Below are positions 38,758 to 58,399 of a stretch of DNA of 64,000 nucleotides, one piece after another. Position numbers and translations under genes: made by a program. The notes below the pieces were generated by a model. The model did not search any database. It was not told where the DNA came from and was given only the letters and a program-made list of their open reading frames with translations. Location of the stretch: assembly GCA_016342755.1 (NCBI GenBank), contig JAEINS010000001.1, positions 372,001 through 436,000 on the forward strand. Reading direction: 5' to 3'. The DNA comes from Melioribacteraceae bacterium. GTDB lineage: Bacteria > Bacteroidota > Ignavibacteria > Ignavibacteriales > Melioribacteraceae. Position 1 is the first letter of the stretch. Every line of letters starts with the position of its first letter.

Positions 38758-39409
38758 CTTCGATGTAATGATTTAAGTCGTTACTATTATTACCTTTACT
38801 GTGTAATCTAACATAGCGCGCTTTTTCGCCTTTTGCATCAATAAGTTTTCCTTCTGCAGTTTCAACATAATGCCAGTCAGTTCCAGCACCTAAACCGCTA
38901 GAATTATCTAAATCGTTATTAAATAATGTTCTAACGTTTTTAGTGAAATCAGCATCATCAGCAACCTGAATAACAACATCAAAATAAACTCTAGGCTGTT
39001 TGTGAAAATGCCAAACTACTATTGCGTATAATTCATAAGCCTTCTCAAGATCTATAGTAATGTGCTGCGAAAAAGGTCCCAATTCTACGAAGTAACCATC
39101 ATCAGCATCTTTGTCACCATCATTAATCATTTCAATTTCACCAATAATAGGCATATCATCGGTACTTATAATTTGTTTTCCCAGAGCCAGATTTTTAGTT
39201 CCTTCGGGAGCCAAAAACGGAGCACGCGGTTTACCAAGCGGCTTTTCAAGTTTTTCAATATTCATGTTAGTCGGAGTACCCACAAACATAGATTTTGGAA
39301 GATCTATGTTTATAGGAACTAATTTTGCATCTTGCGAATAAGAATTTTGAGCTAAGAATAATGTGCAAATAAAACTGACTAATAAAATTACGCTAAACTT
39401 TTTATTCAT
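38738..39409 (-). CDS. Discoidin (F5/8 type C)-like secreted protein
   Basis: 223 residues with signal peptide (1-25, ending NSYSQ). After a short linker (KPLGKPRAPFLAPEG) comes a jelly-roll domain: KNLALGKQIISTDD, INDGDKDADDGYFVELGP, QHITIDLEKAYELYAIVVWH and EKARYVRLHSKGN..., ending IEVAVYGK. This is the F5/8 type C layout, usually a carbohydrate- or surface-binding module. Good ribosome binding site (AAGGAG). The last 20 bases overlap the start of the GT-C gene. Located among respiratory components; function unknown. Confidence 0.75.
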   Translation of the reverse strand: MNKKFSVILLVSFICTLFLAQNSYSQDAKLVPINIDLPKSMFVGTPTNMNIEKLEKPLGKPRAPFLAPEGTKNLALGKQIISTDDMPIIGEIEMINDGDKDADDGYFVELGPFSQHITIDLEKAYELYAIVVWHFHKQPRVYFDVVIQVADDADFTKNVRTLFNNDLDNSSGLGAGTDWHYVETAEGKLIDAKGEKARYVRLHSKGNNSNDLNHYIEVAVYGK

Positions 39410-39434
39410 TATTTAAAATCTCCTTAATTATAAA

Positions 39435-40046
39435 TTACTTATTTTCTTTTTGAATACGTAAGATAAAACCTATTTGAAGAAAAACCAAAATAGAAAAAAG
39501 AAGTACACTATAACGATGGAGTTCTAACAAATTGGCTTGTCCTTCAGTTCCAAATATTGGATACATTCCCAATACAATTGAAAGCATTAAAGGGAGTGAA
39601 ACAATTGCTAATAACCAAAACAGAATTTTTGAGATTCCCGATTTTGAAACCTCTAATCCTTTCTCAAATTGAATCTCACTTTCGTTAAACTTATTTGATT
39701 CAGCTGAAATAACTAAAAGTATCATAAGTGAAACCGCAAATAGCGGAGCAACAGCTACATGCAGCAATAATAATATACCCGAAAGATGAATACCAAAAAA
39801 TATAACAGGAAAAAATCCGGTTAAAAAGAGCAGATCGAATAAGAGCAGAGTAATAACAGTAAAAACTCTTTTTGTTGATCCGTTTGCACGAAGATCATTT
39901 TTTTTGAATAGATCCGGAGTTGTTTTAAGTTCATCAAAATAAATTTTTAGTGCTTCGCTGATACTTAAATCTAATTGTTTCAGAACTTTAATTATCCATA
40001 CTATGGAAATTACTAATGCTAAGACAGAAATAATTCTAAACATCAT
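39435..40046 (-). CDS. Small polytopic membrane protein with conserved His, possible b-type cytochrome
   Basis: 203 residues. Hydrophobic segments near 4-22, 62-82, 86-116, 140-162 and 178-198. Histidines lie within or at the ends of helices (His87, His96 in FGIHLSGILLLLHVAVAP and His177 in LLELHRYSVLLF), as in membrane subunits that carry haem b. I cannot assign a family with certainty. Five bases downstream of a multiheme cytochrome c gene, so it may be that protein's membrane partner, passing electrons between quinone and periplasm. Confidence 0.55.
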   Translation of the reverse strand: MMFRIISVLALVISIVWIIKVLKQLDLSISEALKIYFDELKTTPDLFKKNDLRANGSTKRVFTVITLLLFDLLFLTGFFPVIFFGIHLSGILLLLHVAVAPLFAVSLMILLVISAESNKFNESEIQFEKGLEVSKSGISKILFWLLAIVSLPLMLSIVLGMYPIFGTEGQANLLELHRYSVLLFSILVFLQIGFILRIQKENK

Positions 40047-40051
40047 TTATT

Positions 40052-41896: not shown

Positions 41897-41909
41897 TATA
41901 ACTCCTTTA

Positions 41910-43256
41910 CTATATATGAAACTCGTTTTTGTTAAATCTGATTTCTCTTTTTGCTTTTATAGCTTCATTAACTTTTAGAACCGCCACTGCAGTTTCATAA
42001 CCAATTTCTACCGGGCAATTCAATTTATCTTTACCACGGATAGAATTAAAGAAGTTTTCTAAATGAGGTTTATGATAAGGATCATTAAACTCAATTGGCA
42101 AAGTATGTTTTGGCGGAGCAACAGTTTCACGAACATCCAGAATAGCTTTTGTTTCAACTTTTTTTGCTTCTTCGGATGGCGCAACTACTATTCCTTTTGA
42201 AACCCACTGATCCCATGCCGGGGCGGTTGCTTCTTTAAAAACACCAACACGTCCGGCTGATTCAGAAATTGTTAAAGCTCCCTGATCGCCCATAAAGGTT
42301 TCAAAGTATCCTTGATTACTGTTGGTTGTAATTGTCTGGTAAAATGCCCGTACAATTCCATGATCAGTTTTATACTTAAATGTTGCAAGTACTGTGTCAT
42401 ACCATTCGTGTGTAGCCGGATCATAATAATCAGTTCCGCCGCTGGCAATAACAGATACCGGCGGTGTATTTAAAAACCAGCTGTAAATATCAATCTGATG
42501 TGAACCTAAATCCACAATTGGTCCGCCGCCTAATCCTTTATACCAGCGCCAGTTACGATGCTGATTCATATTTTTAAAACCATATTTTCTTAATACTGAA
42601 TTTGGTATAGCCTTATTTTTTGGCCATCCATTATCAGGCTGAACAGATCTGTTCCACTGACCGTTAATGGTTGTTATTTTGCCTAAAAGACCTGCATCCT
42701 GTATTAAATTGTTATAACAATGAATATAATTAGGATTACTTCTGCGCTGATGACCAATCTGTACTAAACGTCCTGTTCTTCGGGCTGCGTTAACAATCTG
42801 GCGCGCGCCTTCTAATGTATTCGACATTTCTTTTTCACAATAAACATGAAGTCCGGCTTCCATACAATCTACGGCATGTTTAGCATGCCAGAAATCGGGA
42901 GTAGCAACAATAACCGCGTCCAGATCTTTTTCTTTCGCAAGCATTTCACGGTAATCTTCGTATGCGTTTAATTCATGGCCATATTTTTTAAGAAGTCTAT
43001 AAGCCCTTTTCTGATTATAGTCCTGCCAAATATCACAAACAGCTTTAAATTTTATATTCGGAATTTTTAAACACGCATTCATTAAAACCTGACCCTGAGA
43101 ACCGGTTCCTAATAACGCAACGTTTAAATCATTAGTTACAGAGCTTTGTGCATTTGTTTTAATATACGGCGATAAAATTATTCCTGCTCCGGCCGCCGCA
43201 GTTAGCTTAAGAAAATTTCTTCTATCAATATTAGTATTTGAATCTTTTTTAATCAT
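41910..43256 (-). CDS. Tat-exported Gfo/Idh/MocA oxidoreductase with altered EKP motif
   Basis: 448 residues from the ATG at 43256 (GAGAG about 8 bases upstream); a longer TTG start at 43286 would overlap the previous gene. Twin-arginine signal IDRRNFLKLTA. Rossmann start NVALLGTGSQGQ, ATPDFWHA, and GGPIVDLGSHQIDIYSW with the full Asp-Gly-His-Asp set. The EKP motif reads CEKEMSNT: Lys is present but Pro is Glu. Immediately upstream of the multiheme cytochrome, 14 bases apart, which suggests that these two products work together. Confidence 0.9.
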   Translation of the reverse strand: MIKKDSNTNIDRRNFLKLTAAAGAGIILSPYIKTNAQSSVTNDLNVALLGTGSQGQVLMNACLKIPNIKFKAVCDIWQDYNQKRAYRLLKKYGHELNAYEDYREMLAKEKDLDAVIVATPDFWHAKHAVDCMEAGLHVYCEKEMSNTLEGARQIVNAARRTGRLVQIGHQRRSNPNYIHCYNNLIQDAGLLGKITTINGQWNRSVQPDNGWPKNKAIPNSVLRKYGFKNMNQHRNWRWYKGLGGGPIVDLGSHQIDIYSWFLNTPPVSVIASGGTDYYDPATHEWYDTVLATFKYKTDHGIVRAFYQTITTNSNQGYFETFMGDQGALTISESAGRVGVFKEATAPAWDQWVSKGIVVAPSEEAKKVETKAILDVRETVAPPKHTLPIEFNDPYHKPHLENFFNSIRGKDKLNCPVEIGYETAVAVLKVNEAIKAKREIRFNKNEFHI

Positions 43257-43273
43257 TTTAATAGCTCTCACTT

Positions 43274-44644
43274 TTATAATTTCCAACCTGGTGCGTATTC
43301 ATAATGAAGAAGATCATTTGCTTCAGGAACGTTTGTAAATTCTCCTTTTTCTCCATCATATTCCAGAATAGTGTTTTTATCTTTTAATCTTACTGCTATA
43401 TTGCCAAGTAACATTACTTCAGTTAGTTTAGCTGCATATTCAAAATCAGTTGTACTTTTAGTACCGTTTTTAATAGCATCAATCCATTCCTGATGAATTC
43501 CGGGTGATCTTTCGATAGTTTTTTCCGGGCGCTTATATTCTTTCATAAAAGTTTCTGGAAATAATCTTGGACCGGAACCGTATGTAGAATGCATAAGTTT
43601 TCCTTTTGAACCATAATAAACTACTCCGCCGCCAGAGTCTCCAATTTGTCTGCCAGGTTCCAGATCTTCAGGACGTTCGGGCATTAAACCGCCATCATAC
43701 CATTTAAATGTAACCGGAGGTTTTCCGTCTCTTTCAGGGAAAGTCCATGTAATAATTTCAGCTTCGGGGTAACATTCGCTGTTAAAATTAGTTGATGATG
43801 CCTGTATTGTTTTAGGTAAGCCTAAATCTAAAGCCCAGAAAGGATGATCCATAATATGAGCGCCCATATCACCAATTGCGCCGGTTCCAAAATCCCATCT
43901 TCCTCTCCATGAGAATGGATGATAATCTGGATGATATGCTCTAAAAGGAGCAGGTCCTAACCAGGAAATCCAATCTAAGGTTGGCGGAACCGAAGGAATT
44001 TCTTTTGTTCTTTCAATCATACCCTGAGGCCATATTGGTCTGTTAGTAAATGCATCAACTTTAGTTACATCGCCAATTGCGCCATCCCAGATCCATTCGT
44101 TAACCAAACGTGCCGCTTCACCTGCGTGACCCTGATTACCCATCTGTGAAACAATTTTATTTTCTTTTGCAAATTTTGCCAATGTTCTGGCTTCTTTAAC
44201 TGTGTGAGTCAGTGGCTTTTGTACAAAAACATGAATTCCTCTTCGCATTGCTTCCATAGCAATTACTGCATGAGTATGATCCGGAGTACTTATTGTAACA
44301 GCCTCAATATCTTTTTCTTTGTCAAGCATTACTCTAAAATCTCTGTAAACCTTTAGATCAGGATGTCTTAGTCTGGCAGCTTCACCTTGTGTATCGTCAA
44401 CATCACATAAAGCAACTACATTTTCGTGCGCAACAGCATTTGAATCAGAGTTGCCTTTTCCGCCAATTCCAATATTAGCAATATGAAGAATATCACTTGG
44501 AGCTCTGTAACCCTGGCCTCCTAATACGTGGCGGGGAACTATGCTAAATGCAGCAGCCGCTAAAGTTGTTCTTCCGATAAATTGTCTTCTTGAAATTCCG
44601 TTATCAGAGCTATGAGTCTGATTTTGACTTTTTTTGGTGCTCAT
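43274..44644 (-). CDS. Tat-exported Gfo/Idh/MocA oxidoreductase, first gene of the leftward unit
   Basis: 456 residues. Twin-arginine signal ISRRQFIGRTT (residues 17-27). Motifs: IANIGIGGKGNSD (Rossmann), STPDHTHA, VQKPLTHT (QKP in place of EKP, Lys kept) and FGTGAIGDMGAHIMD. Same subfamily as 2-1054 and 53035-54375, with an AFTNRPIWPQG loop that probably shapes the sugar site. AAGGAG lies 5 bases before the ATG. The promoter must lie in 44645-45161, shared with the rightward unit. Confidence 0.92.
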   Translation of the reverse strand: MSTKKSQNQTHSSDNGISRRQFIGRTTLAAAAFSIVPRHVLGGQGYRAPSDILHIANIGIGGKGNSDSNAVAHENVVALCDVDDTQGEAARLRHPDLKVYRDFRVMLDKEKDIEAVTISTPDHTHAVIAMEAMRRGIHVFVQKPLTHTVKEARTLAKFAKENKIVSQMGNQGHAGEAARLVNEWIWDGAIGDVTKVDAFTNRPIWPQGMIERTKEIPSVPPTLDWISWLGPAPFRAYHPDYHPFSWRGRWDFGTGAIGDMGAHIMDHPFWALDLGLPKTIQASSTNFNSECYPEAEIITWTFPERDGKPPVTFKWYDGGLMPERPEDLEPGRQIGDSGGGVVYYGSKGKLMHSTYGSGPRLFPETFMKEYKRPEKTIERSPGIHQEWIDAIKNGTKSTTDFEYAAKLTEVMLLGNIAVRLKDKNTILEYDGEKGEFTNVPEANDLLHYEYAPGWKL

Positions 44645-45161: not shown

Positions 45162-46373
45162 ATGTCAATTAATATACGTTTAAGTATAATGATGTTTCTG
45201 CAATACGCAATTTGGGGTGCCTGGTATGTTACTGTAGGTAATTTTATGAGTGTATCCGGAATGGACTCTGTAATTCATTGGGCATACACAGTTAGTCCTA
45301 TTGCCGCCATAATTTCACCATTTTTTTTAAGTATGGTTGCCGACAGGTATTTTGCTACGGAAAAAGTATTAGCTGTTTTACAAATATTAGGCGGAATTGC
45401 ACTTTTAGCGGCTCCTGCGATGGCAGAAATTTCACCTACAATTTTTATACTTACTTTACTAATTAATATGATTTGTTATATGCCAACCATTGGACTTACA
45501 AATTCGATGGCATTTGCGCACATGACTGATCAGGAGAAGCAATTCCCGATAATTAGAGTTTTTGGAACTATCGGGTGGATTGCTGCCGGGATTTTTGTCT
45601 CAGGAATTTTGGAAGCTGATAAAACGGATATCCCGTTTTTGGTTGCGGGAGTATTAAGCATTTTTATGGGATTATTCAGTTTTGTACTGCCTCACACTCC
45701 GCCGCCGGCCGCCGGCCAAAAAACAACATTTAGACAAATTATTGGTATTGAAGCATTCAATAAAATAAAAAGTAAACCATTCATAGTATTTTTAGTCAGT
45801 TCATTTTTAATCTGCATTCCATTGGCGGTTTATTATTCTTATGCGCCAGTGTTTGTGAATGCCTCCGGTCTGGAAAATCCGGCATTCAAAATGTCATTCG
45901 GACAAATGTCAGAAGCTCTGTTTATAATAATGATGCCGCTGTTGTTTCCAATATTTGGAATAAAAAGGATGCTTTTAATTGGAATGGGCGCATGGGCACT
46001 GCGATATGCTTTGTTTGCTTTTGGTGCTCCAGATACAGTGAGCTGGATGATTTTAACCGGAATTATTTTGCATGGCATTTGTTATGATTTTTTCTTTGTA
46101 GCAGGCTTTATTTATGTTGATAAAAAAGCGGTCCCGGAGATTAGGGCACAGGCGCAGGGATTTGTTGTGCTGGCAACATACGGAGTAGGAATGTTAATAG
46201 GTTCTCAAATTGCCGGATATATATACAACAATATTGTTACCGATTCCTCAAATGCAATGCTGCAATGGAAACAGTTTTGGTTTGTTCCCGCAATTTTATC
46301 GGTTCTTGTAATGATATTTTTCTGGATTATGTTCAAGGATAAAGAAGTTGAAAAAAACAGAGGTCCTTTATGA
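45162..46373 (+). CDS. MFS transporter, nucleoside/sugar:H+ symporter family
   Basis: 403 residues, about twelve transmembrane helices, no signal cleavage. N-terminus MFLQYAIWGAWYVTVGNFM is the signature of the NupG/XapB nucleoside:H+ symporter group of the major facilitator superfamily; EKQFPIIRVFGTIGWIAAG and KAVPEIRAQAQGFVVLAT are further conserved loops. In bacteria with sugar clusters, members of this group are often next to oxidoreductases and probably import sugars or keto-sugars. The stop codon overlaps the next start (ATGA), implying translational coupling. First gene of the rightward unit. Confidence 0.88.
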   Translation: MSINIRLSIMMFLQYAIWGAWYVTVGNFMSVSGMDSVIHWAYTVSPIAAIISPFFLSMVADRYFATEKVLAVLQILGGIALLAAPAMAEISPTIFILTLLINMICYMPTIGLTNSMAFAHMTDQEKQFPIIRVFGTIGWIAAGIFVSGILEADKTDIPFLVAGVLSIFMGLFSFVLPHTPPPAAGQKTTFRQIIGIEAFNKIKSKPFIVFLVSSFLICIPLAVYYSYAPVFVNASGLENPAFKMSFGQMSEALFIIMMPLLFPIFGIKRMLLIGMGAWALRYALFAFGAPDTVSWMILTGIILHGICYDFFFVAGFIYVDKKAVPEIRAQAQGFVVLATYGVGMLIGSQIAGYIYNNIVTDSSNAMLQWKQFWFVPAILSVLVMIFFWIMFKDKEVEKNRGPL

Positions 46374-47617
46374 AAAAAAGATTAAATGTTGGTTTTATTG
46401 GAACCGGATTTATTGGACAATTTCATATCAGATCATGGATTTCGGTACGTGATGCTGATATAAACGGTATCTTTGATAAAAATGAAGAATCAGCAATTGA
46501 AGCTGCCAGTTTAGTGAAATCTCTTAAAGTCGGTGATCCGAAGATTTATAAGTCAGTAACAGAGATGGTTTCTGATCCGGCAATTGACGCGGTATGGATA
46601 TTAACTCCAAATTTTACACGATTAGAAGTTATGCAGGAAATTGTAAATACAATTGATAGCGGAAAAGGGAACTTAATTGGAGTTGCCTGCGAAAAACCTC
46701 TTGGGCGCAATGTTGCGGAAGCTAAAAAAATGTTAGAACTGGTTCAAAAAGTCGGGATATTGGACGGATATTTAGAGGATCAGTTATTCTCGCCAACCAC
46801 AATCAGGGGCAAAGAATTATTATGGTCCCGCGGGGCAGAATTAGCCGGACGTCCTTATCTGGCAAGAGCAGCCGAGGAACACAGCGGTCCGCATATGCCT
46901 TGGTTTTGGGAAGGAGAATTGCAAGGCGGCGGTGTATTAAACGATATGATGTGCCATTCAGTAGAAGTAGCAAGGCATTTATTAACTGAACCGGGAAAAC
47001 CCCGTACAAGTTTAACTCCTGTTAAAGTAACAGCTCATACCGAATGTTTAAAATGGCAGAGAGAAAAATACGCAGGTCAACTGGCTGAATTAAGCGGAGG
47101 AAAACTTAATTATAAAGAGAGACCAAGCGAAGATTATGCACGTTCTGTAATAGAATATAAAGATGAAAACGGTACAAAAGTAATTGTTGAAACTACTACT
47201 TCGTGGTGTTATGTGGGTGCCGGATTACGTCTGAGTATGGAAGTTCTGGGCCCGGAATATTCACTTTCTATAAATTCTCTTGATACTGATATGAAACTTT
47301 TTTTAAGCAGGGGAATTAAGGGAGCTGAAGGTGAAGACCTTGTAGAAAAGCAGAATGCCGAAACAGGGTTAATGCCTATTGTTGCTAATGAAGAAAATGC
47401 TTACGGCTACGATGTTGAAAATAGACACATGGTAGAATCTTTTCTTGATGGAAAAAGACCAAAAGAAAATTTTAGCGACGGTGTGAATGTAACTGAATTG
47501 TTAATGACGGCATACAAAAGTGCTGAAGAAGAGAGAACAATTGAATTCCCTCCACCGGATTTAGATAAGTTTATACCAAAGGTTGCACAAGGTAAATGGA
47601 ATCCAAATAATAAATAA
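46370..47617 (+). CDS. Cytoplasmic Gfo/Idh/MocA oxidoreductase
   Basis: 415 residues, without a Tat or Sec signal, unlike the unit's other members. Rossmann start LNVGFIGTGFIGQFHI, ILTPNFTR and CEKPLGRN (standard EKP). Substrate region GGGVLNDMMCHSVEVARH replaces the usual D-x-G-x-H with D-M-M-C-H. C-terminus has ENRHMVESFLDGKRP. Cytoplasmic location and overlap with the symporter gene suggest that it reduces or further oxidises the imported keto-sugar, returning it to central metabolism. Confidence 0.9.
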   Translation: MKKRLNVGFIGTGFIGQFHIRSWISVRDADINGIFDKNEESAIEAASLVKSLKVGDPKIYKSVTEMVSDPAIDAVWILTPNFTRLEVMQEIVNTIDSGKGNLIGVACEKPLGRNVAEAKKMLELVQKVGILDGYLEDQLFSPTTIRGKELLWSRGAELAGRPYLARAAEEHSGPHMPWFWEGELQGGGVLNDMMCHSVEVARHLLTEPGKPRTSLTPVKVTAHTECLKWQREKYAGQLAELSGGKLNYKERPSEDYARSVIEYKDENGTKVIVETTTSWCYVGAGLRLSMEVLGPEYSLSINSLDTDMKLFLSRGIKGAEGEDLVEKQNAETGLMPIVANEENAYGYDVENRHMVESFLDGKRPKENFSDGVNVTELLMTAYKSAEEERTIEFPPPDLDKFIPKVAQGKWNPNNK

Positions 47618-47633
47618 AGGAATTGTAAAAATT

Positions 47634-49067
47634 ATGAAAAAATTTCCCCTATTAGTAATGTGTTTTGTTATTGTTTTTTCTTCATTAACTATTGGACAAA
47701 ACAAATCTGAAAGATTGTATTACAAGGATGTAAAGATTAAAGAAATTCCTGCCGCCATGCAGTGCTGGACTTTTAGAAAATTTTCATTTATGGAAACTTT
47801 GCCAAAAGTAGAAGAATTAGGAATTAAGTATTTAGAAGCATACCCGGGACAAAAATTATATCCTGATAACGAAGATAAAAAAGTTGGTCCTGGTTTAGCT
47901 GAAGAAGATATTAAAGCTATTAAGGATGCGCTAAAAAAACACGGAATTACTCTAAAAGCCTTTGGTGTAACTAATTTTGATCCAAGTATTGAAGCAGCCC
48001 GGCCTACATTTGAGTTTGCTAAGACAATGGGAATTAAAGTTATTGTAATTGAACCGCAATATGACGATTACAAATTTATTGAAGAATTGGTAAAAGAATA
48101 CAATATAAAAGTTGCCGTTCATAATCATGCAAAACCTTCTAAATATTGGAATCCGGAAACTGTATTAAAAAATGTTAAAGGTCTTGATAAACGAATTGGT
48201 GTTGCCGGAGATACTGGTCATTGGCTGCGCTCTGGAATTGATCCGGTAGATGCGCTTCAGTTATGCGGCGATAGATTGTTAAATCTTCATCTTAAAGATC
48301 TTGATGAGGCCGGAATTGTAGAAGCACAGGATGTGCCATTTGGAACAGGAAAAGTGAATGTTCACGATATATTGGCGCAGTTAACATTAATGGATTACAG
48401 AGGAACGTTTTCTGTTGAACACGAAAGACAATCAGACGAAATGAATCCTTGTCCGCCAATTAAAAAAGGTTTGGAGTATATAAACTCAATAACTTATTAC
48501 AAAGGCTACAATGAGCTTTTAAGTAATTGGGACGGCAAATATTTTAAACATGGCTGGAATCATTATGGACCCGGACATTTTGTATTAGATCAGGAAACTG
48601 GTGAACTTCTTGCTTTTGGCGGAATGGGATTATTATGGTACAGTGCAAAACAATTTGAAGATTTTGTGTTAGATCTGGAGTTTAAATGTCATGATCAAAA
48701 TACAAATTCGGGTGTATTTTACAGAGTTCCGGAATTTGTAACCAGCGACGATTACATTTATCATGCTTTCGAAATTCAAATTTATGATAGCGAGGAACCT
48801 GGAGAACATAGTACAGCGGCAATTTATGATGCTGAACCGGCAAAGCTAAATAATTCTTATGAAACTGGCGATTGGAATCATTATAGAATTACCGTTATTA
48901 AAGATGAAGTGAAAGTTGAATTGAATGGTGTTGAAGTAAATAATTGGAAGATGGAGCCAAGAGGAAAGATTAAAGATTTTGCTATGAAAGGTTTTATCGG
49001 GTTACAAAACCATGATAGTCATGCTAAAGTAAGCTTCCGCAATATTTTTGTTAAAGAGTTAAAGTAA
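47634..49067 (+). CDS. Fusion of sugar isomerase/epimerase TIM barrel and DUF1080 (3-keto-disaccharide hydrolase) domain, secreted
   Basis: 477 residues from the ATG at 47634 (AAAGGA upstream); a start at 47583 lies inside the previous gene. Signal peptide to about residue 22 (SLTIGQ). Residues 40-275 are an AP-endonuclease-2-like barrel: YLEAYPGQ, VIVIEPQYD, IKVAVHNHAKPS, GVAGDTGHWLRSG, LLNLHLKDLDE and FSVEHERQ supply metal ligands. Residues 290-477 are a DUF1080 beta-sandwich: GELLAFGGMGLLWYSAKQ, TNSGVFYRVPEF and DWNHYRITVIKDEVKVELNG. The fusion ties a keto-glycoside lyase/hydrolase to an isomerase/hydratase-type enzyme. Confidence 0.88.
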   Translation: MKKFPLLVMCFVIVFSSLTIGQNKSERLYYKDVKIKEIPAAMQCWTFRKFSFMETLPKVEELGIKYLEAYPGQKLYPDNEDKKVGPGLAEEDIKAIKDALKKHGITLKAFGVTNFDPSIEAARPTFEFAKTMGIKVIVIEPQYDDYKFIEELVKEYNIKVAVHNHAKPSKYWNPETVLKNVKGLDKRIGVAGDTGHWLRSGIDPVDALQLCGDRLLNLHLKDLDEAGIVEAQDVPFGTGKVNVHDILAQLTLMDYRGTFSVEHERQSDEMNPCPPIKKGLEYINSITYYKGYNELLSNWDGKYFKHGWNHYGPGHFVLDQETGELLAFGGMGLLWYSAKQFEDFVLDLEFKCHDQNTNSGVFYRVPEFVTSDDYIYHAFEIQIYDSEEPGEHSTAAIYDAEPAKLNNSYETGDWNHYRITVIKDEVKVELNGVEVNNWKMEPRGKIKDFAMKGFIGLQNHDSHAKVSFRNIFVKELK

Positions 49068-49198: not shown

Positions 49199-50125
49199 AT
49201 GGACAGAAAAAAATTTCTTGCTAACTCAGCTATAGCTGCTGCCGGAATAGCATTAGGTTCAACAAATACTTTTGCGGGAAAAAAGGATTCTACAATAAAC
49301 TCTCCTAAGAAAAAATTTAATCTAAAATATGCTCCACATTTTGGAATGTTTCAAAACAATGCGGGTGAAGATTTAATTGATCAGTTAAAGTTTATGCACG
49401 ATCAGGGATTTACGGCTTTTGAAGATAACGGAATGAAAGGTCGGACTGTTGCAACGCAGGAAAATATTGCAAAACAAATGTCTAAAACCAATATGGAAAT
49501 GGGAGTTTTTGTTGCTCATAATATTTATTGGACTGAACCAAACTTAACAAGCGGTAAAAAAGATTTAAGAGATGAATTCTTAAAAGATATTAAAGAATCT
49601 GTAGAAGTTGCTAAGCGTGTAAATGCTACATGGATGACTGTTGTTCCGGGGCATGTTGATTTAAGATTAGATATGGGATATCAAACTGCGAATGTTGTTG
49701 AATCATTAAAACAGGCCAGCGCAATTTTAGAACCTCACGGTTTAATAATGGTTTTGGAATCACTTAATTTTTATAATCATCCGGGATTATTCTTAAAAAA
49801 AATACCTCAGGCATATGAAATTTGTAAAGCTGTAAATAGTCCTGCGTGTAAAATTTTAGATGATCTTTATCATCAGCAAATACAGGAAGGGAATTTAATT
49901 CCTAATATAGATAAAGCCTGGGAAGAAATTGCTTATTTCCAAATGGGTGATAATCCGGGAAGAAACGAACCTACAACTGGTGAAATAAATTACTTAAATG
50001 TATTTAAACATATTCATGAAAAAGGATTTAAAGGAATACTGGGTATGGAACACGGAAACAGCAAACCTGGCAAAGAAGGTGAAATGGCTGTTATTGAAGC
50101 ATACAGAAATAGTGATCAATTTTAA
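49199..50125 (+). CDS. Hydroxypyruvate isomerase-like TIM barrel protein, exported
   Basis: 308 residues. The N-terminus MDRKKFLANSAIAAAGIALG is a Tat/Sec-type signal with a single Arg-Lys pair. Strong ribosome binding site (GGAGG). Xylose-isomerase-like barrel with WMTVVPGHVD, LIMVLESLNFYNHPG, CKILDDLYHQQIQEGN, YFQMGDNPGRNEPTTGEINY and GILGMEHGNS; the HQQxxEG and GRxEPxxGEI blocks are typical of hydroxypyruvate isomerase-like proteins. Exported, so probably acts on free sugar or keto-sugar in the periplasm. Confidence 0.87.
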   Translation: MDRKKFLANSAIAAAGIALGSTNTFAGKKDSTINSPKKKFNLKYAPHFGMFQNNAGEDLIDQLKFMHDQGFTAFEDNGMKGRTVATQENIAKQMSKTNMEMGVFVAHNIYWTEPNLTSGKKDLRDEFLKDIKESVEVAKRVNATWMTVVPGHVDLRLDMGYQTANVVESLKQASAILEPHGLIMVLESLNFYNHPGLFLKKIPQAYEICKAVNSPACKILDDLYHQQIQEGNLIPNIDKAWEEIAYFQMGDNPGRNEPTTGEINYLNVFKHIHEKGFKGILGMEHGNSKPGKEGEMAVIEAYRNSDQF

Positions 50126-50145: not shown

Positions 50146-51684
50146 ATGTTTAAATCAAAAAAAACTGATAAAAAGAAAACTGGAATTAAAAAGTATTTGT
50201 ACGGCTTAGTTTTTTTACTGGGTATTATTTTTACAATTGGATTTAATTACGGATTAGAATATTCGTCTTCAAATGAGTTTTGTGAATCATGTCACGTTCA
50301 TCCGCAGGCAACACAATCATGGAAGCTGGGAAATCACTTTGATAATAGAAGCGGAGTTCTTGTTAAATGTGTTGACTGCCATTTACCGCCAGACGGTTTT
50401 GATTATCTTTATGCAAAAACTACAACCGGATTAAGAGATGTTTACGGTAAACTTTTTAAAGATGAAGATGAATTTAACTGGGAAGCAAAATCGACAAGAG
50501 AAGGTGCCGAACATCACATTTATAAATCAGGTTGTATAAAGTGTCATCAAAATTTGTTTCCGCGCGCTTTAAGCAAAAAGGGTGAAGACGCGCATTTGTA
50601 TTATGATTCTAATTCGGAGACACTTAGATGTATTAATTGTCATCTTACAACCGGACATTTTCATGAGAAATCTGATGATGATTTAACTAAAAGCTTATCT
50701 GATAAAAACCCGGAACTCTTTACGGCTGCGGCGAAGCTAAAATCATTCGAAAACTTTACTGAAACTATTCCCAATACACATGTATCATGGGAGATGATTG
50801 CTATCCCGGAAGGATCATTTAAGATAGGTACTCCTAAAGAGGAATCTTATAGAAGTGAAGTTGAAGGTCCGCAAAAAGAAGTTAAGATAAGCAAATTTTG
50901 GATGGCTAAGGTTGAAGTTACCTGGAATGAGTTTTTACAATTCTTAGAGGAAACAGGTGTTCAGGGCAGAACTGAAGACCAGAAAAAATCCGTTGCAGAA
51001 AAGAACGGTGTTGATGCTATCTCCGGGCCAACTCCGCCTTATGGAAATCCTGGTCAGGGCTGGGGCAAAGGTGAACGCCCAGCAATTACTATGACTTTTT
51101 ATTCCGCTCAAAAATATTGTGAGTGGTTATCAAAAAGAACAGGTAAAACATATAGACTGCCAACAGAAGCCGAGTGGGAATATGCTTCCCGCAGTGGTGT
51201 TGAATCGGCTTATTTCTTTAAAGGTGATCCTGATACATATTCAGAAAAAAGTTTTTGGAACAGTTTGTTTGGAACTGATACTTCAATAATAAATTCCTAT
51301 GCTGTGTATAGATTAAACAGCAGGGGAAAAACCGGCTTGCCATCATCCGTAAAAGAAAATCCGTTTGGTCTTAAAAATATGTTAGGTAACGTAAAAGAGT
51401 TTTGTGCCGACTGGTACGTTCCAAATTATTATTCCCAGTTAAGTGACGGGGTTATAGATCCCAAAGGTCCGGCTAGCGGCAAGGAAAGAGTTGTCAGAGG
51501 CGGATCGTATAAAAATGATGCATCAGATTTAAGAGCTGGTAAACGTAATTATACTAAACATGATGCATGGATGGTTACAGATCCGCAGATTCCAAAGAGT
51601 CTTTGGTGGTATTCTGACTGTAATGATGTAGGTTTTAGGGTAGTTTGCGAATTTAACGATAAATTATTTCAAATTTCGAAATAA
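50146..51684 (+). CDS. Tetraheme NapC/NirT-type cytochrome c fused to a SUMF1 (FGE-like) domain
   Basis: 512 residues. One transmembrane helix at 17-36 is uncleaved, as in NapC/NrfH quinol dehydrogenases. Four haem sites follow: CESCH (46), CVDCH (75), CIKCH (130) and CINCH (162). Residues 213-505 are a SUMF1/FGE-like domain: WEMIAIPEGSFKIGTP, KVEVTWNEFLQFLEE, YRLPTEAEWEYASRS, GNVKEFCADWYVP and VVRGGSYKNDASDLRAGKR. The position of the two catalytic cysteines of formylglycine-generating enzymes (after RGGSY) holds no Cys, so it is unlikely to mature sulfatases. The parts suggest a membrane quinol/cytochrome shuttle with a ligand-binding module. Confidence 0.88.
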   Translation: MFKSKKTDKKKTGIKKYLYGLVFLLGIIFTIGFNYGLEYSSSNEFCESCHVHPQATQSWKLGNHFDNRSGVLVKCVDCHLPPDGFDYLYAKTTTGLRDVYGKLFKDEDEFNWEAKSTREGAEHHIYKSGCIKCHQNLFPRALSKKGEDAHLYYDSNSETLRCINCHLTTGHFHEKSDDDLTKSLSDKNPELFTAAAKLKSFENFTETIPNTHVSWEMIAIPEGSFKIGTPKEESYRSEVEGPQKEVKISKFWMAKVEVTWNEFLQFLEETGVQGRTEDQKKSVAEKNGVDAISGPTPPYGNPGQGWGKGERPAITMTFYSAQKYCEWLSKRTGKTYRLPTEAEWEYASRSGVESAYFFKGDPDTYSEKSFWNSLFGTDTSIINSYAVYRLNSRGKTGLPSSVKENPFGLKNMLGNVKEFCADWYVPNYYSQLSDGVIDPKGPASGKERVVRGGSYKNDASDLRAGKRNYTKHDAWMVTDPQIPKSLWWYSDCNDVGFRVVCEFNDKLFQISK

Positions 51685-51700: not shown

Positions 51701-53017
51701 ATGAGTAAAGATTTTAATCGTCGTGAATTTATGGGTGTTGCAGGCTTAGCAGCAACCGGATTAGCAATTGGTTTAGCAGGATGTGGAAAGAACAGGACAT
51801 TCGAATTGAAGCCGTTTTTGGATCAGGCACCTGATGGCAAAGAATTAAAAGCCGGTTTAATTGGCTGCGGAGGAAGAGGTACAGGAGCGGCAATTAATTT
51901 TCTTGATGCCGGACCAAACTTAAAAATACATGCTTTGGGTGATTTGTTTAAAGACAGAGTTGACGGATGTAAAACAAAGCTTAAGAATGAAAAAAATGTT
52001 GAAGTCGCGGATGAAAACTGTTTTACAGGTTTTGATGCTTATGAAAAAGTAATAGATTCCGGTGTTGACATAATTATATTAGCTACACCGCCTCATTTTA
52101 GACCTATGCAATTTGCGGCAGCTATTGACGCACGCAAACATGTGTTTATGGAAAAACCTGTTGCAGTAGATCCGGTTGGTGCACGTTCAATAATGGCTTC
52201 ATCTAAAAAGGCTGAAAAATTAGGTCTTGTTGTTGGAACAGGAACGCAAAGAAGGCATCAGCGCGATTATGTAACCGCATTTAAACAAATTTATGAAGGT
52301 GCAATTGGTGAAGTTGTTTCTGCAAATTGCTACTGGAATCAGAGTCAGCTTTGGTATAGAGAGCCTAAAAAAAATCTGTCTGAAATGGAAAATATGATTC
52401 GTGACTGGGTAAACTGGACCTGGCTTTCAGGCGATCATATTGTTGAACAGCATGTTCATAATATTGATGTAATACATTGGTTTTCAGAAGCAAAGCCAGT
52501 TAAAGCGGTTGGTTTCGGTTCAAGACAGCGAAGAGTAACCGGTGATCAGTATGATAATTTTAGCGTTGATTTTGAATATGATAATGGGATGCATATGCAT
52601 AGTATGAGTCGTCAGATAAATGGCTGTGCTAATAATGTGTCCGAATTTATTAAAGGTTCAAAAGGTTATTCTAATTGCCAAAATAAAATATGGAACGATA
52701 AAGGTGAAGTAATCTGGGAATATAAGTACGCTAAAACAGATGATGAATATTGGGCGGCAAACAATCTAAAAGTTTCACCGTACGTTCAGGAGCATATTGA
52801 TCTTGTTACAGCTATTAGAAATAACAAACCTTATGTTGAGGCTGAACAAACCGCCATTTCTACTATGGCTGCTATAATGGGCAGAATTTCGGCTTATACC
52901 GGTAAGGAAGTTACCTGGGAAGAAATGATGAATTCAAATATAAAACTTGGTCCTAATGAGTATTTACTTGGTAAAGTTGATGTGATTAAATCAGTTAAAG
53001 TTCCCGGTGTTGAATAA
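51701..53017 (+). CDS. Tat lipoprotein Gfo/Idh/MocA oxidoreductase
   Basis: 438 residues. The signal combines twin arginine (FNRREFMGV) with a lipobox (LAGC, Cys28), so the enzyme is likely exported folded and anchored to the membrane. Rossmann start AGLIGCGGRGTGAAIN, ATPPHFRP and MEKPVAVD. The usual Asp-x-Gly-x-His reads VEQHVHNIDVIHWF, with Glu in the Asp place. Starts 16 bases after the cytochrome/SUMF1 gene; membrane anchoring next to a membrane cytochrome fits direct electron exchange (inference). Confidence 0.9.
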   Translation: MSKDFNRREFMGVAGLAATGLAIGLAGCGKNRTFELKPFLDQAPDGKELKAGLIGCGGRGTGAAINFLDAGPNLKIHALGDLFKDRVDGCKTKLKNEKNVEVADENCFTGFDAYEKVIDSGVDIIILATPPHFRPMQFAAAIDARKHVFMEKPVAVDPVGARSIMASSKKAEKLGLVVGTGTQRRHQRDYVTAFKQIYEGAIGEVVSANCYWNQSQLWYREPKKNLSEMENMIRDWVNWTWLSGDHIVEQHVHNIDVIHWFSEAKPVKAVGFGSRQRRVTGDQYDNFSVDFEYDNGMHMHSMSRQINGCANNVSEFIKGSKGYSNCQNKIWNDKGEVIWEYKYAKTDDEYWAANNLKVSPYVQEHIDLVTAIRNNKPYVEAEQTAISTMAAIMGRISAYTGKEVTWEEMMNSNIKLGPNEYLLGKVDVIKSVKVPGVE

Positions 53018-53034: not shown

Positions 53035-54375
53035 ATGAAAAGAAGAGATTTCTTAAAGGCGGGTGCGGCAGCTTCAGCGTTTTTTATTGTTCCTAGAAAT
53101 GTACTGGGAAAGGGGTTTGTAGCACCTAGTGATAAACTTAATATTGCCTGTGTTGGTTCCGGCGGAATGGGTGATTATAATTTAAGTTCATGCACTGAGG
53201 AAAATATTGTCGCATTATGTGATGTTGATCATATTAATGCCTCGCATAATTTTGAAAAATTCCCGGACGCTGTAAAATATAAAGACTACCGTGTAATGTT
53301 TGAAAAACAAAAAGATATTGACGCGGTAATTATAGCTACACCGGATCACACACATGCCGTAATAACTATGGCTGCAATGCAGTTAGGCAAACATGTTTTT
53401 TGTCAGAAACCTTTAACACATACTGTTGAAGAAGCCAGGCAAATTGTAAAGGCGGCAAAGTATTATAAAGTTCAGACACAAATGGGTAATCAGGGACATT
53501 CTTCCGAACATATACGTCTCTTAAAAGAGTGGATTGCAGATGGAGCTATTGGAAATGTTACAGAAGTACACGCATGGACTGACAGACCAGTTGGTGGTGA
53601 TCCATGGTCTACATTCGATGTAAAGGCAATGCCAAGTGATACACCTCCTTTACCCGAAGGTATGGCATGGGATTTATGGTTAGGTCCGGCACCCGAACGT
53701 CCTTATCATCCGGATTATCATCCTGGTAAATGGAGAGCCTGGTTCGATTTTGGGACCGGTGCTTTGGGCGATATGGGTTGTCATATTCTTGATCCCGCAT
53801 TTTGGGCTTTAGATCTTGGTTCTCCAACTACTATTCAGGCTACATCAACACATTGGGAACCAGATGTTGCTTCACAAACATTCCCGAGAGCGTCAATTGT
53901 CAGGTATCAGTTTCCTGAAAGAGGAGAAATGCCGCCGGTTAAATTGACATGGTACGATGGCAGATTGCTGCCTCCAATACCTGAAGAACTTGAGCAGGGA
54001 AGAGAATTGCCCGGAAGCGGAGCAATTATAATTGGTGATAAAGGTAAGATAATGCACGGTTCTCATGGAGCAAGTGGCATGAGGATTATTCCTGAAGAAA
54101 AAATGAGAGAATATAGCCGTCCGGGAAAAACTATTCCGCGTGTAAATAATACACACGAAGGAGACTGGATAAGAGCATGTAAAGAAGGCAAAGACGGCGT
54201 TCCAGCTAGTTCAAACTTTAATTACGGTGGTGCTTTAACAGAAATGGTTTTATTAGGTATGGCAGCAATAAGATCAAAAGATGAAATATTAAAATGGGAT
54301 TCTGATAAACTTGAGTTTACGGATAATCCCAATGCTACCCGACTTTTATCTAAAGAGAATAGAACCGGCTGGTAA
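53035..54375 (+). CDS. Tat-exported Gfo/Idh/MocA oxidoreductase, last gene of rightward unit
   Basis: 446 residues. Twin-arginine KRRDFLKAG and hydrophobic run ending NVLGKG. Motifs: IACVGSGGMGDYNL, ATPDHTHA, CQKPLTHT (QKP) and FGTGALGDMGCHILDPAFWAL. Close relative of 43274-44644, with the same DHTHA and QKPLTHT blocks, so one subfamily sits at both ends of the divergent cluster. A terminator follows 20 bases after the stop. Confidence 0.92.
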   Translation: MKRRDFLKAGAAASAFFIVPRNVLGKGFVAPSDKLNIACVGSGGMGDYNLSSCTEENIVALCDVDHINASHNFEKFPDAVKYKDYRVMFEKQKDIDAVIIATPDHTHAVITMAAMQLGKHVFCQKPLTHTVEEARQIVKAAKYYKVQTQMGNQGHSSEHIRLLKEWIADGAIGNVTEVHAWTDRPVGGDPWSTFDVKAMPSDTPPLPEGMAWDLWLGPAPERPYHPDYHPGKWRAWFDFGTGALGDMGCHILDPAFWALDLGSPTTIQATSTHWEPDVASQTFPRASIVRYQFPERGEMPPVKLTWYDGRLLPPIPEELEQGRELPGSGAIIIGDKGKIMHGSHGASGMRIIPEEKMREYSRPGKTIPRVNNTHEGDWIRACKEGKDGVPASSNFNYGGALTEMVLLGMAAIRSKDEILKWDSDKLEFTDNPNATRLLSKENRTGW

Positions 54376-54526: not shown

Positions 54527-57500
54527 ATGTCCAGAATATCAACATACATTTTTTGTCTATTTCTAATATTTAGCAACATAACCGCGCAAAAAACCGGCTA
54601 CACGGAATTATGTGAAGGGAATAATAATTTTACTGCTCCGGCAAGTTTTGTTTTGGAACAGAGTTCAGGAATTCTTTCGGTCGAAATTAATAAAGAATCC
54701 AGTAAAACCTGGCAGGGCTTTGGAACTGAATTAGTTGACATGGTTGATATTACTTCAAAAGAAATTGTTAATTTAAGATTGAAGGCAGATACACCTATGC
54801 TGTTATCTGTACAGATATTTGATGGATACTATGTTTATACAACCAGAAGTGTTAAGATTTATCCTTCCGAAGATTTTGTCGATTATTGTATCGATTTTAC
54901 CGGATCATCATCCGTTGATAAAAAAATGATTAAAAAGATTCTTTTAACACCTAACGGAAATACAATTGAACAGTTTCATGCAAATCTTCAAATAGATGAA
55001 ATAAAACTTGGAACAGATGCGCAATATCTGGCATCTGCCGGAGCAGTTTCTAAAAAAAATGTTTTTACTGAATCAAAAAATAATAAGCTGCTTTTATTAG
55101 ATATTGATAATAGTCAATCGATATCAATTATAGAAAGTGGTTTGGGAATTGAAAATATTCAAATTGGTGAAATTATAAATAAACAATCGGAAATAACTTT
55201 TGATTGTAAAGAGAGTTTTATTGGAAGTGATTATTTTTCTGTATCTATAAACGGAATTGAAAATTATGAAAACAATGAAATAAAAATCCCGATAAATATT
55301 GAAGGAAATAATACTCCGTTTATTGAAAGTATTACCGGCAAAAATATTTTGGCTGGTGATACAGTTTTGGTTTCTCTAAAAAATATTACCGATGGCAACA
55401 GTACAGTTGAACAGAATTTAATTATTTCGGCAACAAGCAATAATCAGGAAGTATTGCCGGATAGTAATATAACGGTCGATTTTAATATTGGCGAGTCTGT
55501 TGGCAAACTTAGATTCAGTTGTAATAAAGCTGATTCAAATATAATTGTAACAATTAAACTAGATGATCAATATTCTGTAAATAGTATATATGAAACATCA
55601 TTTTTAGTAAATTCATTTAATCAGATTAATAATAAACCGGAGATTGACGCGGTTTTTGATAAATTTATTTACATCGAAAATGGTGAGTCCAGTATTTCAC
55701 TTTCGGGCATTAGTGACGGAGACGCCGACCAGCAGAATTTAAGCTTCAGTTTTGAATCCGGTAATTCTAACATAGTTCCAAATGCAGATATAAGTGTAGA
55801 GTATGTTCAGGGAAGTTCCGAAGGATTGCTAAAAGTAATTCCCAAAGCCGCCGGAACAACCCGGATTACGATAAGTGTTGCTGATGATGGCGGAAACAAT
55901 AATAATAATGGCAACCAATTAACAGAAATCTCTTTTAATCTTGAAGTAGGAAATTTGCCTAAGAATGGTGATGTTGCCGATTTTAGTTCATTTGATAATT
56001 GGGGAAGAAGTTTTGAAAATGGGCAGCAGTATTATGAACTTGGCACATTTCACGGAAAAGAGAATGTGCTGAAAATAACTTTAAACGATAAAGCATGCTG
56101 GACCGGAACCATTTATAATCTACCGGAATTAAATCTGGATAAACATCGTTACATGAGCTACGAAATTTATTTTGAAGGGAAAAGTTTCGAACAATTTTCG
56201 AGCGGTAAAACACATGCTTATTTTTATGATGACGGCTGGGATGCGGATATAAATAGGAATGTAAATGCGGCACATGATGAGAGAATGACTATCCCTATTA
56301 AAAAATGGGGAGCTGTTTTTTTAGATTTTAGAAAAGCAGGCGGATTGGATAATAATAATGGTGAAGAAATAAATGTAGCAAGAATTAAAAAGGTATTGCT
56401 TAATTATGCGTCTGATTTTACATGGCCGTTTCCAATTGATGACGGAACTGTTTATATAGCTAATTTAAAAGTTGGAGATGCAGTGCCAGACAGTTTAATT
56501 CCGGTAATCCCAACTAAATGTACAATAAATCCGGTTGCAAATCAGGTTGTGTTTAGCGGAGATTCCGAACAAACTATTCATTTAACCGGCATTGGCAATG
56601 GCAAAACTGATGGAATAAAACCTTTGTTAACTATTGCAGCTAGTGACACAACTTTAATTGAAGGCATTGTGGTTTCAGAGATTGATGATTCAGGAAAAGC
56701 CTTTGTAAATTATACTCCTAAAGATCTGACTGGGAAAACGTCAGTATCAGTAACAGTTTCAGCTAATGATGCAAATGCTAAAACAATTGTTTTTGTAATT
56801 GATGTTATTGATAAAGATATAACAAAGACAGTTGATGTAGAACTATTTCCGGGTACAGGTTATCAGACAATGCAGGGCTTTGGTACTTTCTATTTTCCAT
56901 CCAGGCAGAATTATACAAATATTTATACCGATGAACTGGGTGCTTCCGCAGTCAGGATTGGTTTAATAAGTAATCAGATTGAGCCGGTAAATGATAATGA
57001 TGATCCAAACGTATTAAATTTAAGCGCGTTAAATTATGATGCATTCGATTTTGATTATCTAAGAAGATTAAAAGAAAACGGTGTTGAGAATTTTATACTT
57101 ACTTCATGGTCGCCTCCGGCATGGATGAAAAAGAACATGTCAGTAGATTACGGTTATGCATCGGCTCCAAATTATGCTGAGACTGATAACATTCTTGAAC
57201 CATATTATTATGATGAGTTTGCTGAGAGTATGGTAGCTGTAGTTAAAATTTTAAAAAATGAAGCTGATATTGATCTGTACGCGATTGGTATCCAGAATGA
57301 GCCTGCATTTAACGAACCTTATGCCAGTGCGGTTCTTAGTCCGGATAAATTTGCTGATTTAGTTGGTATTGTTGGCGAAAGATTTGAAAGGGAAGGAATA
57401 ACAACCAAGCTATATATGCCTGAACAGGTTTTTTCGCAGTCGCATTATTCTATGGCACAATATATTAATGTGCTTATTGCCAGACCTGAGTCTGAAAAAT

Positions 57501-58399
57501 ATGTAGATATAATAGCGACTCATGCTTATGGTGAAGACGGTATTAAGCCGGGACAGCCTTCATACCCGGGCTGGGTTGAACTTTGGAGTAATACTAAAAA
57601 GTGTCAGAATCCAAAAGAACTCTGGATGAGTGAAACTTTTCCTGAATGTAAAGGTTATGACGATGCTTTTTCACTTGCCGGAGCTATTCATGGCGCAATA
57701 AAATTTGGAAATATAAGCTTTTGGACTCTTTGGGATATTGAAGGAACATTGATGAAAACTTCAAAAAAATTAGAATCGTTTTACACTTCTCAGAATTATT
57801 ATAAATTTATACGGCCAGGAGCCAGAAGAATAAAAGCGGAATCTCTTCATGAAGATATAATGGTTACTTCTTTTAATGATTACAAAAATAACATGTTAAC
57901 AACTGTAGTAATAAATAAAAATTCTGACCCGCTGACAATTAGGCTGTTGAGTAAAATTGATAGTATCCCTTCAGAGTTTGATGTCTATACAACAGCCAGA
58001 AATATGAACTTTGTACATCGCGGTTCAATTGAACCAAATTCAACCTTATCACTGCCGGCAAAAAGTATTACAACATTAGTCGGGTATACTGATGGTGAAA
58101 TGGTAGTTGAAACGGAGCAGGAAGATTTGCTGCCGGACAATTATAAATTATATCAGAACTATCCAAATCCGTTTAATCCTACAACAACAATAAAATATTC
58201 ATTATCAAAATCAACAAAAGTAAAGCTTGCTGTATTCGATATTTTAGGAAGAAGGGTTGAAATGCTGGTTGATCAGAATCAGAGCGCTGGTAATTATAAT
58301 CTACAGTTTAATGCTTCTAGATTATCAAGCGGAGTTTATTTTTATAGAATTATTACTAATGAATTTGTGGAAGTAAAGAAAATGATTTTGATAAAGTAG
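54527..58399 (+). CDS. Large multidomain GH30 glycoside hydrolase with type IX secretion sorting domain
   Basis: 1290 residues. Signal peptide to about 20 (NITAQ). Then beta-rich modules: a CBM-like region (30-165), Ig/cadherin-like repeats with DGDADQQNLSF and DDGGNNNNNG, and a second CBM-like domain (480-660). The catalytic barrel runs from about 780 to 1110: YQTMQGFGTFYFPS, SWSPPAWMKKN, acid/base Glu925 in IQNEP and nucleophile Glu1036 in WMSETF. The C-terminal 85 residues (YPNPFNPTTTIKYSL, GVYFYRIITNEF, ending KKMILIK) are a T9SS type A sorting domain, so the enzyme is secreted or displayed on the cell surface. Family activities include beta-glucanases, xylanases and galactanases. Confidence 0.9.
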   Translation: MSRISTYIFCLFLIFSNITAQKTGYTELCEGNNNFTAPASFVLEQSSGILSVEINKESSKTWQGFGTELVDMVDITSKEIVNLRLKADTPMLLSVQIFDGYYVYTTRSVKIYPSEDFVDYCIDFTGSSSVDKKMIKKILLTPNGNTIEQFHANLQIDEIKLGTDAQYLASAGAVSKKNVFTESKNNKLLLLDIDNSQSISIIESGLGIENIQIGEIINKQSEITFDCKESFIGSDYFSVSINGIENYENNEIKIPINIEGNNTPFIESITGKNILAGDTVLVSLKNITDGNSTVEQNLIISATSNNQEVLPDSNITVDFNIGESVGKLRFSCNKADSNIIVTIKLDDQYSVNSIYETSFLVNSFNQINNKPEIDAVFDKFIYIENGESSISLSGISDGDADQQNLSFSFESGNSNIVPNADISVEYVQGSSEGLLKVIPKAAGTTRITISVADDGGNNNNNGNQLTEISFNLEVGNLPKNGDVADFSSFDNWGRSFENGQQYYELGTFHGKENVLKITLNDKACWTGTIYNLPELNLDKHRYMSYEIYFEGKSFEQFSSGKTHAYFYDDGWDADINRNVNAAHDERMTIPIKKWGAVFLDFRKAGGLDNNNGEEINVARIKKVLLNYASDFTWPFPIDDGTVYIANLKVGDAVPDSLIPVIPTKCTINPVANQVVFSGDSEQTIHLTGIGNGKTDGIKPLLTIAASDTTLIEGIVVSEIDDSGKAFVNYTPKDLTGKTSVSVTVSANDANAKTIVFVIDVIDKDITKTVDVELFPGTGYQTMQGFGTFYFPSRQNYTNIYTDELGASAVRIGLISNQIEPVNDNDDPNVLNLSALNYDAFDFDYLRRLKENGVENFILTSWSPPAWMKKNMSVDYGYASAPNYAETDNILEPYYYDEFAESMVAVVKILKNEADIDLYAIGIQNEPAFNEPYASAVLSPDKFADLVGIVGERFEREGITTKLYMPEQVFSQSHYSMAQYINVLIARPESEKYVDIIATHAYGEDGIKPGQPSYPGWVELWSNTKKCQNPKELWMSETFPECKGYDDAFSLAGAIHGAIKFGNISFWTLWDIEGTLMKTSKKLESFYTSQNYYKFIRPGARRIKAESLHEDIMVTSFNDYKNNMLTTVVINKNSDPLTIRLLSKIDSIPSEFDVYTTARNMNFVHRGSIEPNSTLSLPAKSITTLVGYTDGEMVVETEQEDLLPDNYKLYQNYPNPFNPTTTIKYSLSKSTKVKLAVFDILGRRVEMLVDQNQSAGNYNLQFNASRLSSGVYFYRIITNEFVEVKKMILIK

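Follow-up and report, generated by a model that had tools for sequence, protein, structure and literature searches.

A conserved fusion of a NapC/NirT-type cytochrome and a SUMF1-like domain, and its exported Gfo/Idh partner: a candidate quinone-linked unit for periplasmic sugar oxidation

A window of 64,000 nucleotides, the whole stretch of DNA analysed here, contains a run of forward-strand genes that includes a tetraheme cytochrome fused to a SUMF1-like domain. The genes of this neighborhood, with the basis for each assignment, are as follows.

45162–46373 (+): MFS transporter of the Nucleoside-H+-symporter type (Pfam, curated family profiles)
46370–47617 (+): Gfo/Idh/MocA oxidoreductase without an export signal (Pfam, sequence)
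47631–49067 (+): TIM barrel fused to a 3-keto-disaccharide hydrolase domain, PF06439 (Pfam)
49199–50125 (+): xylose-isomerase-like TIM barrel, which recurs next to stand-alone family members too (Pfam, locus comparison)
50146–51684 (+): fusion gene, NapC/NirT tetraheme cytochrome plus SUMF1-like domain, 512 aa, single intact ORF
51701–53017 (+): partner gene, Gfo/Idh/MocA oxidoreductase with a Tat signal (NRREF) and lipoprotein motif (GLAGC) (Pfam, sequence, model)
53035–54375 (+): Tat-exported Gfo/Idh related to BT_2158 glycoside 3-dehydrogenases (503 bits, under the cut-off of 750)

The following features were located within the fusion gene.

50170–50265 (+): N-terminal membrane helix, residues 9–40 (AlphaFold2 secondary structure, sequence)
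50197–50661 (+): Cytochrom_NNT domain, NrfH-like, residues 18–172 (Pfam, match to NrfH 2j7a)
50281–50301 (+): heme 1 motif CESCHVH, residues 46–52, CXXCHxH and not CXXCHxM, with H52 invariant in 14 aligned fusions
50368–50382 (+): heme 2 motif CVDCH, residues 75–79 (sequence)
50416–50439 (+): K91 and D98, aligned to K82 and D89 of NrfH and invariant in the 14 aligned fusions
50533–50547 (+): heme 3 motif CIKCH, residues 130–134 (sequence)
50629–50643 (+): heme 4 motif CINCH, residues 162–166 (sequence)
50791–51651 (+): SUMF1-like (PvdO-like) domain, residues 216–502 (Pfam, Foldseek top match PvdO 5hha)
51496–51534 (+): RGGSYKNDASDLR, residues 451–463, the formylglycine-generating positions without Cys
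51580–51609 (+): clade signature DPQIPKSLWW, residues 479–488 (motif comparison)

The uninterrupted ORF joins an N-terminal helix, CXXCH motifs at residues 46, 75, 130, and 162, and a SUMF1-type domain in one chain, as the initial annotation had described. Both halves belong to known families, with scores far over the curated cut-offs: 105.8 bits against 24.1 for Cytochrom_NNT (PF03264; E = 2.8e-30, residues 18–172) and 142.9 bits against 23.3 for FGE-sulfatase (PF03781; E = 1.8e-41, residues 216–469). An AlphaFold2 model built with 36 homologues has one helix at residues 9–40 and a SUMF1-like domain with pLDDT mostly >90. The cytochrome part was modelled heme-free and has low confidence, as expected because the heme is absent from the model. 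Scores from a promoter and terminator scan were not above those of shuffled sequence. The full-length architecture is kept at 46%–57% identity in 13 aligned homologues, each with an intact frame and four CXXCH motifs, and an assembly artefact or chance ORF is therefore excluded.

A search for other proteins with this domain order, proposed along with the initial annotation, identified 14 named loci and 51 Bacteroidales genomes. Within the window's class, the fusion was found in 1 of 391 genomes, that of the window itself, and was absent from all 96 nearer relatives. A phylum sample yielded one further fusion (50% identity over residues 18–503), the sequence of which matches a Parabacteroides acidifaciens locus (L079). 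Scanning GTDB with a two-sequence alignment identified the 14 loci (L066–L079), with hosts that include Sunxiuqinia, Maribellus, Parabacteroides, Tannerella, Dysgonomonadaceae, and other Bacteroidia. Among sampled Bacteroidales, the order of P. acidifaciens, 51 of 393 genomes (~13%) and 26 of 206 genera have the fusion. It is neither unique to the window genome nor the oddity it was first taken for. Hosts include many gut and sediment bacteria, among them the common gut commensal Parabacteroides distasonis, a plasmid copy from which is labeled "SUMF1/EgtB/PvdO family nonheme iron enzyme" in RefSeq. The window fusion is closest to the Sunxiuqinia copy (L066), and the best match to the 51701 Gfo/Idh among those compared is the neighbor gene at that same locus (66% identity). 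Because the fusion is solitary in the window's class, it was likely acquired laterally along with the adjacent gene (51701–53017). In the literature searched, which covers few subscription journals, we found no paper naming both NapC and SUMF1, no characterized homologue, and no published description of the architecture. These are known domains in a conserved partnership that is apparently undescribed so far.

The SUMF1 fold of the C-terminal half is evident from its PF03781 score and from Foldseek matches to PvdO and to the formylglycine-generating enzyme (FGE). The nearest solved structure is PvdO 5hha (E = 1.1e-18, TM 0.79 on target), and PvdO is also closest by profile search (E = 9.7e-39). 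Scores were nonetheless well under the cut-offs for the PvdO equivalog (NCBIfam NF051459; 111.2 vs 500 bits) and for the EgtB, OvoA, and SenA sulfoxide or selenoxide synthases (65.5 vs 360, 41.1 vs 400, and 62 vs 420 bits), and these identities were rejected; by score the domain also falls outside the FGE equivalog. No metal site was recognizable in the domain, which has no conserved His cluster. After RGGSY, the fusion reads KNDASDLR, and both active-site cysteines of FGE are absent; the lack of Cys reported earlier is confirmed by the sequence RGGSYKNDASDLR and argues against formylglycine generation. PvdO, a putative periplasmic oxidoreductase, is needed for the final periplasmic oxidation of pyoverdine synthesis, that of dihydropyoverdine, and the purified protein had no detectable cofactor, was inactive alone, and perhaps requires an electron-transport partner (PMC6206403).

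A tree of 95 SUMF1 domains was constructed using a quick method without bootstrapping, and its supports are SH-aLRT values. One clade holds 61 of the 95 domains, including that of the window (support 100). All 15 NapC fusions form a single branch inside it (support 99), and forms fused to PSCyt1 fall in its Verrucomicrobia/Planctomycete part. Clade members are mostly stand-alone exported proteins without a cytochrome. Downstream of the RGGS region and ahead of the C-terminal GFR, the motif DPQxPxSxW occurs in 55 of the 57 members scoring at least 160 bits (the exceptions, L098 and L107, are both planctomycete), in 2 of 15 weaker SUMF1 matches (both within the clade by the tree), and in 0 of 21 other SUMF1 domains of the window's family and order. 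At least four Verrucomicrobia loci (L081, L084, L095, and L103) have one or two PSCyt1 domains ahead of the SUMF1-like domain according to Pfam, and the same layout was judged by sequence in L089. NapC/NirT and PSCyt1 are unrelated cytochrome families, and both are fused to this clade. The PSCyt1 fusion is supportive and not decisive, because PSCyt1 is promiscuous and occurs in many architectures of these phyla; the PSCyt1 label also needs five changes on what is a poorly resolved tree. In a Limisphaerales member (L083: 4684–6855), an N-terminal extension of ~400 aa without CXXCH replaces the cytochrome. No NapC was seen as a separate gene beside stand-alone clade members.

The product of 51701–53017 carries the residues expected of Gfo/Idh enzymes: G55, G57, G60, E151-K152-P153, and H253 are invariant in 35 partner sequences. 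H253 is the candidate catalytic histidine, and the lysine of the EKP motif is kept. Its model has a pLDDT of 88.5, and the nearest Foldseek matches are inositol dehydrogenases, YjhC, aldose-aldose oxidoreductase, and glucose-fructose oxidoreductase. It is not a BT_2158 glycoside 3-dehydrogenase (36.7 bits vs a cut-off of 750) and belongs to another Gfo/Idh family.

Pairing of this family with the fusion is near-obligate. At a threshold of E ≤ 1e-90, the family was detected in 52 of the 393 Bacteroidales genomes, comprising 51 of 51 with the fusion and 1 of 342 without it. A plain Fisher test of this co-occurrence gives 1e-63, a value inflated by shared ancestry, though the pattern covers 26 genera. 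The Gfo/Idh gene lies within 600 bp at 56 of 59 fusion loci. Across the SUMF1-like clade, the family is the immediate neighbor at 44 of 56 loci, compared with 2 of the 15 weaker SUMF1 loci, and those two have the clade motif as well. A lipobox follows the twin-arginine signal in 15 of 15 Gfo/Idh partners of NapC fusions, the window included, and in 0 of 28 scorable partners of non-NapC forms (for the NapC fusions, 10 partners were scored with a regular expression, and four other loci and the window were read from the sequences). Cytochrome tethering of the SUMF1-like protein to the membrane thus coincides with lipid tethering of its partner, which is the best evidence that both work at the same place. 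The initial annotation suggested that the SUMF1-like domain may dock the adjacent Tat lipoprotein oxidoreductase. The genomic evidence for this partnership is very strong; the physical contact itself is inferred. The fusion and the Gfo/Idh protein are very probably functional partners.

Alignment to NrfH (2j7a) places H52 of the fusion at Met49, D98 at Asp89, H64 at His61, and K91 at Lys82, which we take to be a residue near the quinone site. Invariant positions in the 14 aligned fusions are H50, H52, H64, H79, H134, H150, H166, H171, K91, and D98. The residue at the Met position of the heme 1 motif is Met in NrfH 2j7a and in the NrfH-like protein of L034 and is His in all 14 aligned fusions; against the NrfH equivalog (TIGR03153), the window protein scores 73.0 bits, under the cut-off of 134.2. 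In NrfH, the CXXCHXM methionine binds heme 1, and an aspartate occupies the distal side (PMC8840924); this Met and Asp89 are both reported as essential for menaquinol oxidation (PMC10654088). Conservation of the acidic residue suggests that a putative quinone site is retained in the fusion, and the change from Met to His probably alters the coordination or potential of heme 1. Because heme 1 is without the essential Met, quinone chemistry may differ from that of NrfH. This substitution, the match between cytochrome fusion and partner lipidation, the stand-alone clade with its motif, and the PSCyt1 fusion are additions to the initial annotation.

BT2158 is a periplasmic glycoside 3-dehydrogenase required for growth on trehalose, leucrose, and palatinose (PMC11300592). 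Since the neighbors of the fusion are genes of the 3-keto-sugar type and the partner model matches sugar enzymes, a sugar or glycoside is the likely substrate of the pair. Several Bacteroidales copies have a second Gfo/Idh downstream of the pair, and one (L067) also has a ThuA protein. Straight after the window's operon, a gene at 54527–58399 encodes a 1,290-aa T9SS-secreted protein with a GH30-like region, which may supply the pathway substrate. In three loci from Parabacteroides and Tannerella (L079: 13772–15131, L074, and L076), the operon is followed by a RIC-type (iron-sulfur repair) di-iron protein and a LuxR-type regulator, a hint of redox or nitrosative-stress regulation. Two sulfatases had also been reported in the window and are present at 5311–7257 and 13405–14973 (PF00884). 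Their motifs, CAPSR and CSASR, make both Cys-type sulfatases, which therefore need a maturase from elsewhere. The window genome has three further SUMF1 genes.

On the opposite strand, a cluster that neighbors the operon, at 36279–44644 (−), encodes an ApbE flavin transferase (36279–37166), a PMT-like glycosyltransferase, an F5/8-type protein, a small membrane protein, a multiheme cytochrome (40052–41896), and two Tat Gfo/Idh proteins. It looks like a second arrangement of exported dehydrogenases with a cytochrome. ApbE is found within four genes at 11 of 56 clade loci but at 0 of 14 NapC fusions, so it is only a lead, and flavinylation by ApbE as a universal third partner is excluded. Stand-alone pairs of SUMF1-like and Gfo/Idh proteins with ApbE nearby include L082, L094, L096, L100, L103, L106, L110, L116, L117, L123, L127, and others. 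At L038, the gene order is SUMF1-like, YceI-like, then an ApbE-looking protein. Two flavinylation surveys make no mention of SUMF1 or Gfo.

We propose, at what we judge to be even chances, that the fusion is anchored in the membrane and serves a periplasmic sugar-oxidizing Gfo/Idh enzyme as its quinone-linked subunit for redox transfer and docking. A two-component dehydrogenase would oxidize a sugar or glycoside in the periplasm, and the Tat-exported lipoprotein (51701) would be its catalytic subunit, binding NAD(H). The SUMF1-like domain, not acting as an FGE, would dock this subunit or relay its electrons, and the four hemes would pass them to the menaquinone pool via the NrfH-like quinone site. 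Sugar would thus be oxidized outside the cytoplasm with its electrons entering respiration, and the neighboring TIM-barrel and 3-keto-sugar enzymes would process the oxidized product. Electron transfer of some kind between the fusion and the Gfo/Idh protein is slightly favored. A path from sugar through the NAD(H) of Gfo/Idh and the SUMF1-like/heme unit to menaquinone is about an even call; this direction is preferred because NADH can reduce menaquinone in a downhill step, whereas the opposite transfer would be uphill.

Several points count against this proposal. Its weak step is the switch from two-electron hydride to one-electron heme chemistry, for which no flavin or metal center is recognizable in the fusion or in Gfo/Idh. 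Gfo/Idh enzymes are able to run redox-neutrally with bound NAD, making an outside acceptor unnecessary. Most clade members are without their own cytochrome, so the heme is unneeded for the core function or supplied elsewhere. Finally, characterized NapC-type proteins usually accept electrons from quinol, which is the opposite direction. Menaquinol could instead be the donor, with the four hemes feeding the SUMF1/Gfo-Idh unit and a keto-sugar or another acceptor in the periplasm being reduced, as in the NrfHA, NapC, or CymA pathways. Characterized NapC/NirT proteins being quinol dehydrogenases fits this reversal, as do hosts that are gut and termite-gut Bacteroidales (e.g., Parabacteroides, Tannerella, and Dysgonomonadaceae). 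However, with a potential of about −70 mV, menaquinol is too oxidizing a donor for an NAD-dependent Gfo/Idh at about −320 mV, and the CXXCHxM methionine is missing at heme 1, and we regard reverse flow as unlikely.

Instead of docking, the SUMF1-like domain might act as a PvdO-type oxidoreductase on the Gfo/Idh product, with the cytochrome as its electron acceptor. PvdO is the closest solved structure by both profile and fold, and the periplasmic oxidation that depends on it has an unsettled electron route (PMC6206403); the clade is further marked by an invariant DPQxPxSxW segment of its own. A catalytic role is quite unlikely, however, given the absence of FGE cysteines and of a conserved His cluster for metal; PvdO's own catalytic mechanism is unsettled, and several SUMF1 folds are non-catalytic. 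It is improbable that NapC is a mere membrane anchor and that the SUMF1-like domain holds Gfo/Idh without electron transfer: the SUMF1-fold proteins PorK/GldK are structural ring proteins and stand-alone clade members function heme-free, but the 14 aligned fusions all preserve the four heme motifs, eight His, D98, and K91, features superfluous for a simple anchor, and Gfo/Idh is already lipid-anchored wherever the fusion occurs. A formylglycine-generating role for the window's sulfatases, prompted by two Cys-type sulfatases and the SUMF1 fold, can be dismissed, as the catalytic cysteines are missing from both active-site positions, the strict genomic partner is Gfo/Idh and no sulfatase, and three other SUMF1 genes are in the genome.

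Bacteroidota, Planctomycetes, and Verrucomicrobia encode many exported Gfo/Idh proteins, with several in the window alone. For electron disposal by such periplasmic NAD-type enzymes, the gene pair suggests a specific path by which sugar oxidized in the periplasm could feed respiration, and it offers a testable redox role for a SUMF1-fold protein beyond formylglycine and thiohistidine chemistry. More tentatively, the proposed quinone-linked unit could represent a new class of respiratory dehydrogenase, in which a Tat-exported NAD-type Gfo/Idh passes electrons through a PvdO-like SUMF1 domain and a heme-1-altered NrfH-type cytochrome to the quinone pool. In Verrucomicrobia the same SUMF1-like module would connect to PSCyt1, and in other phyla it might connect to carriers flavinylated by ApbE.

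Several known systems can be compared with the proposed unit. BT2158-type systems of Bacteroides likewise have a Tat-exported Gfo/Idh with nearby TIM-barrel isomerases and a DUF1080-type 3-keto-sugar hydrolase (PMC11300592), whereas the 51701 partner is from another Gfo/Idh family; no link of a BT2158-type system to a cytochrome was found in the literature searched. NrfH (2j7a) shares the single membrane helix, four CXXCH motifs, and equivalents of D98, K91, and H64 (D89, K82, and H61). Unlike NrfH, the fusion has CXXCHxH at heme 1, a C-terminal SUMF1-like domain, and a Gfo/Idh partner instead of NrfA. PvdO has the closest fold to the SUMF1-like part, is periplasmic, and is also without the FGE cysteines, but it has no heme domain, a different genomic context, and no DPQxPKSxW segment. 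The resemblance to FGE (SUMF1) is in fold only, as the fusion has neither catalytic cysteine and no conserved sulfatase partner. The proposed principle, a periplasmic sugar dehydrogenase working with a membrane cytochrome subunit, is that of FAD (GMC) dehydrogenases with a cytochrome c subunit, such as fructose or glucoside 3-dehydrogenase. Those proteins are unrelated to the ones described here, being flavoproteins in contrast to an NAD-type Gfo/Idh.
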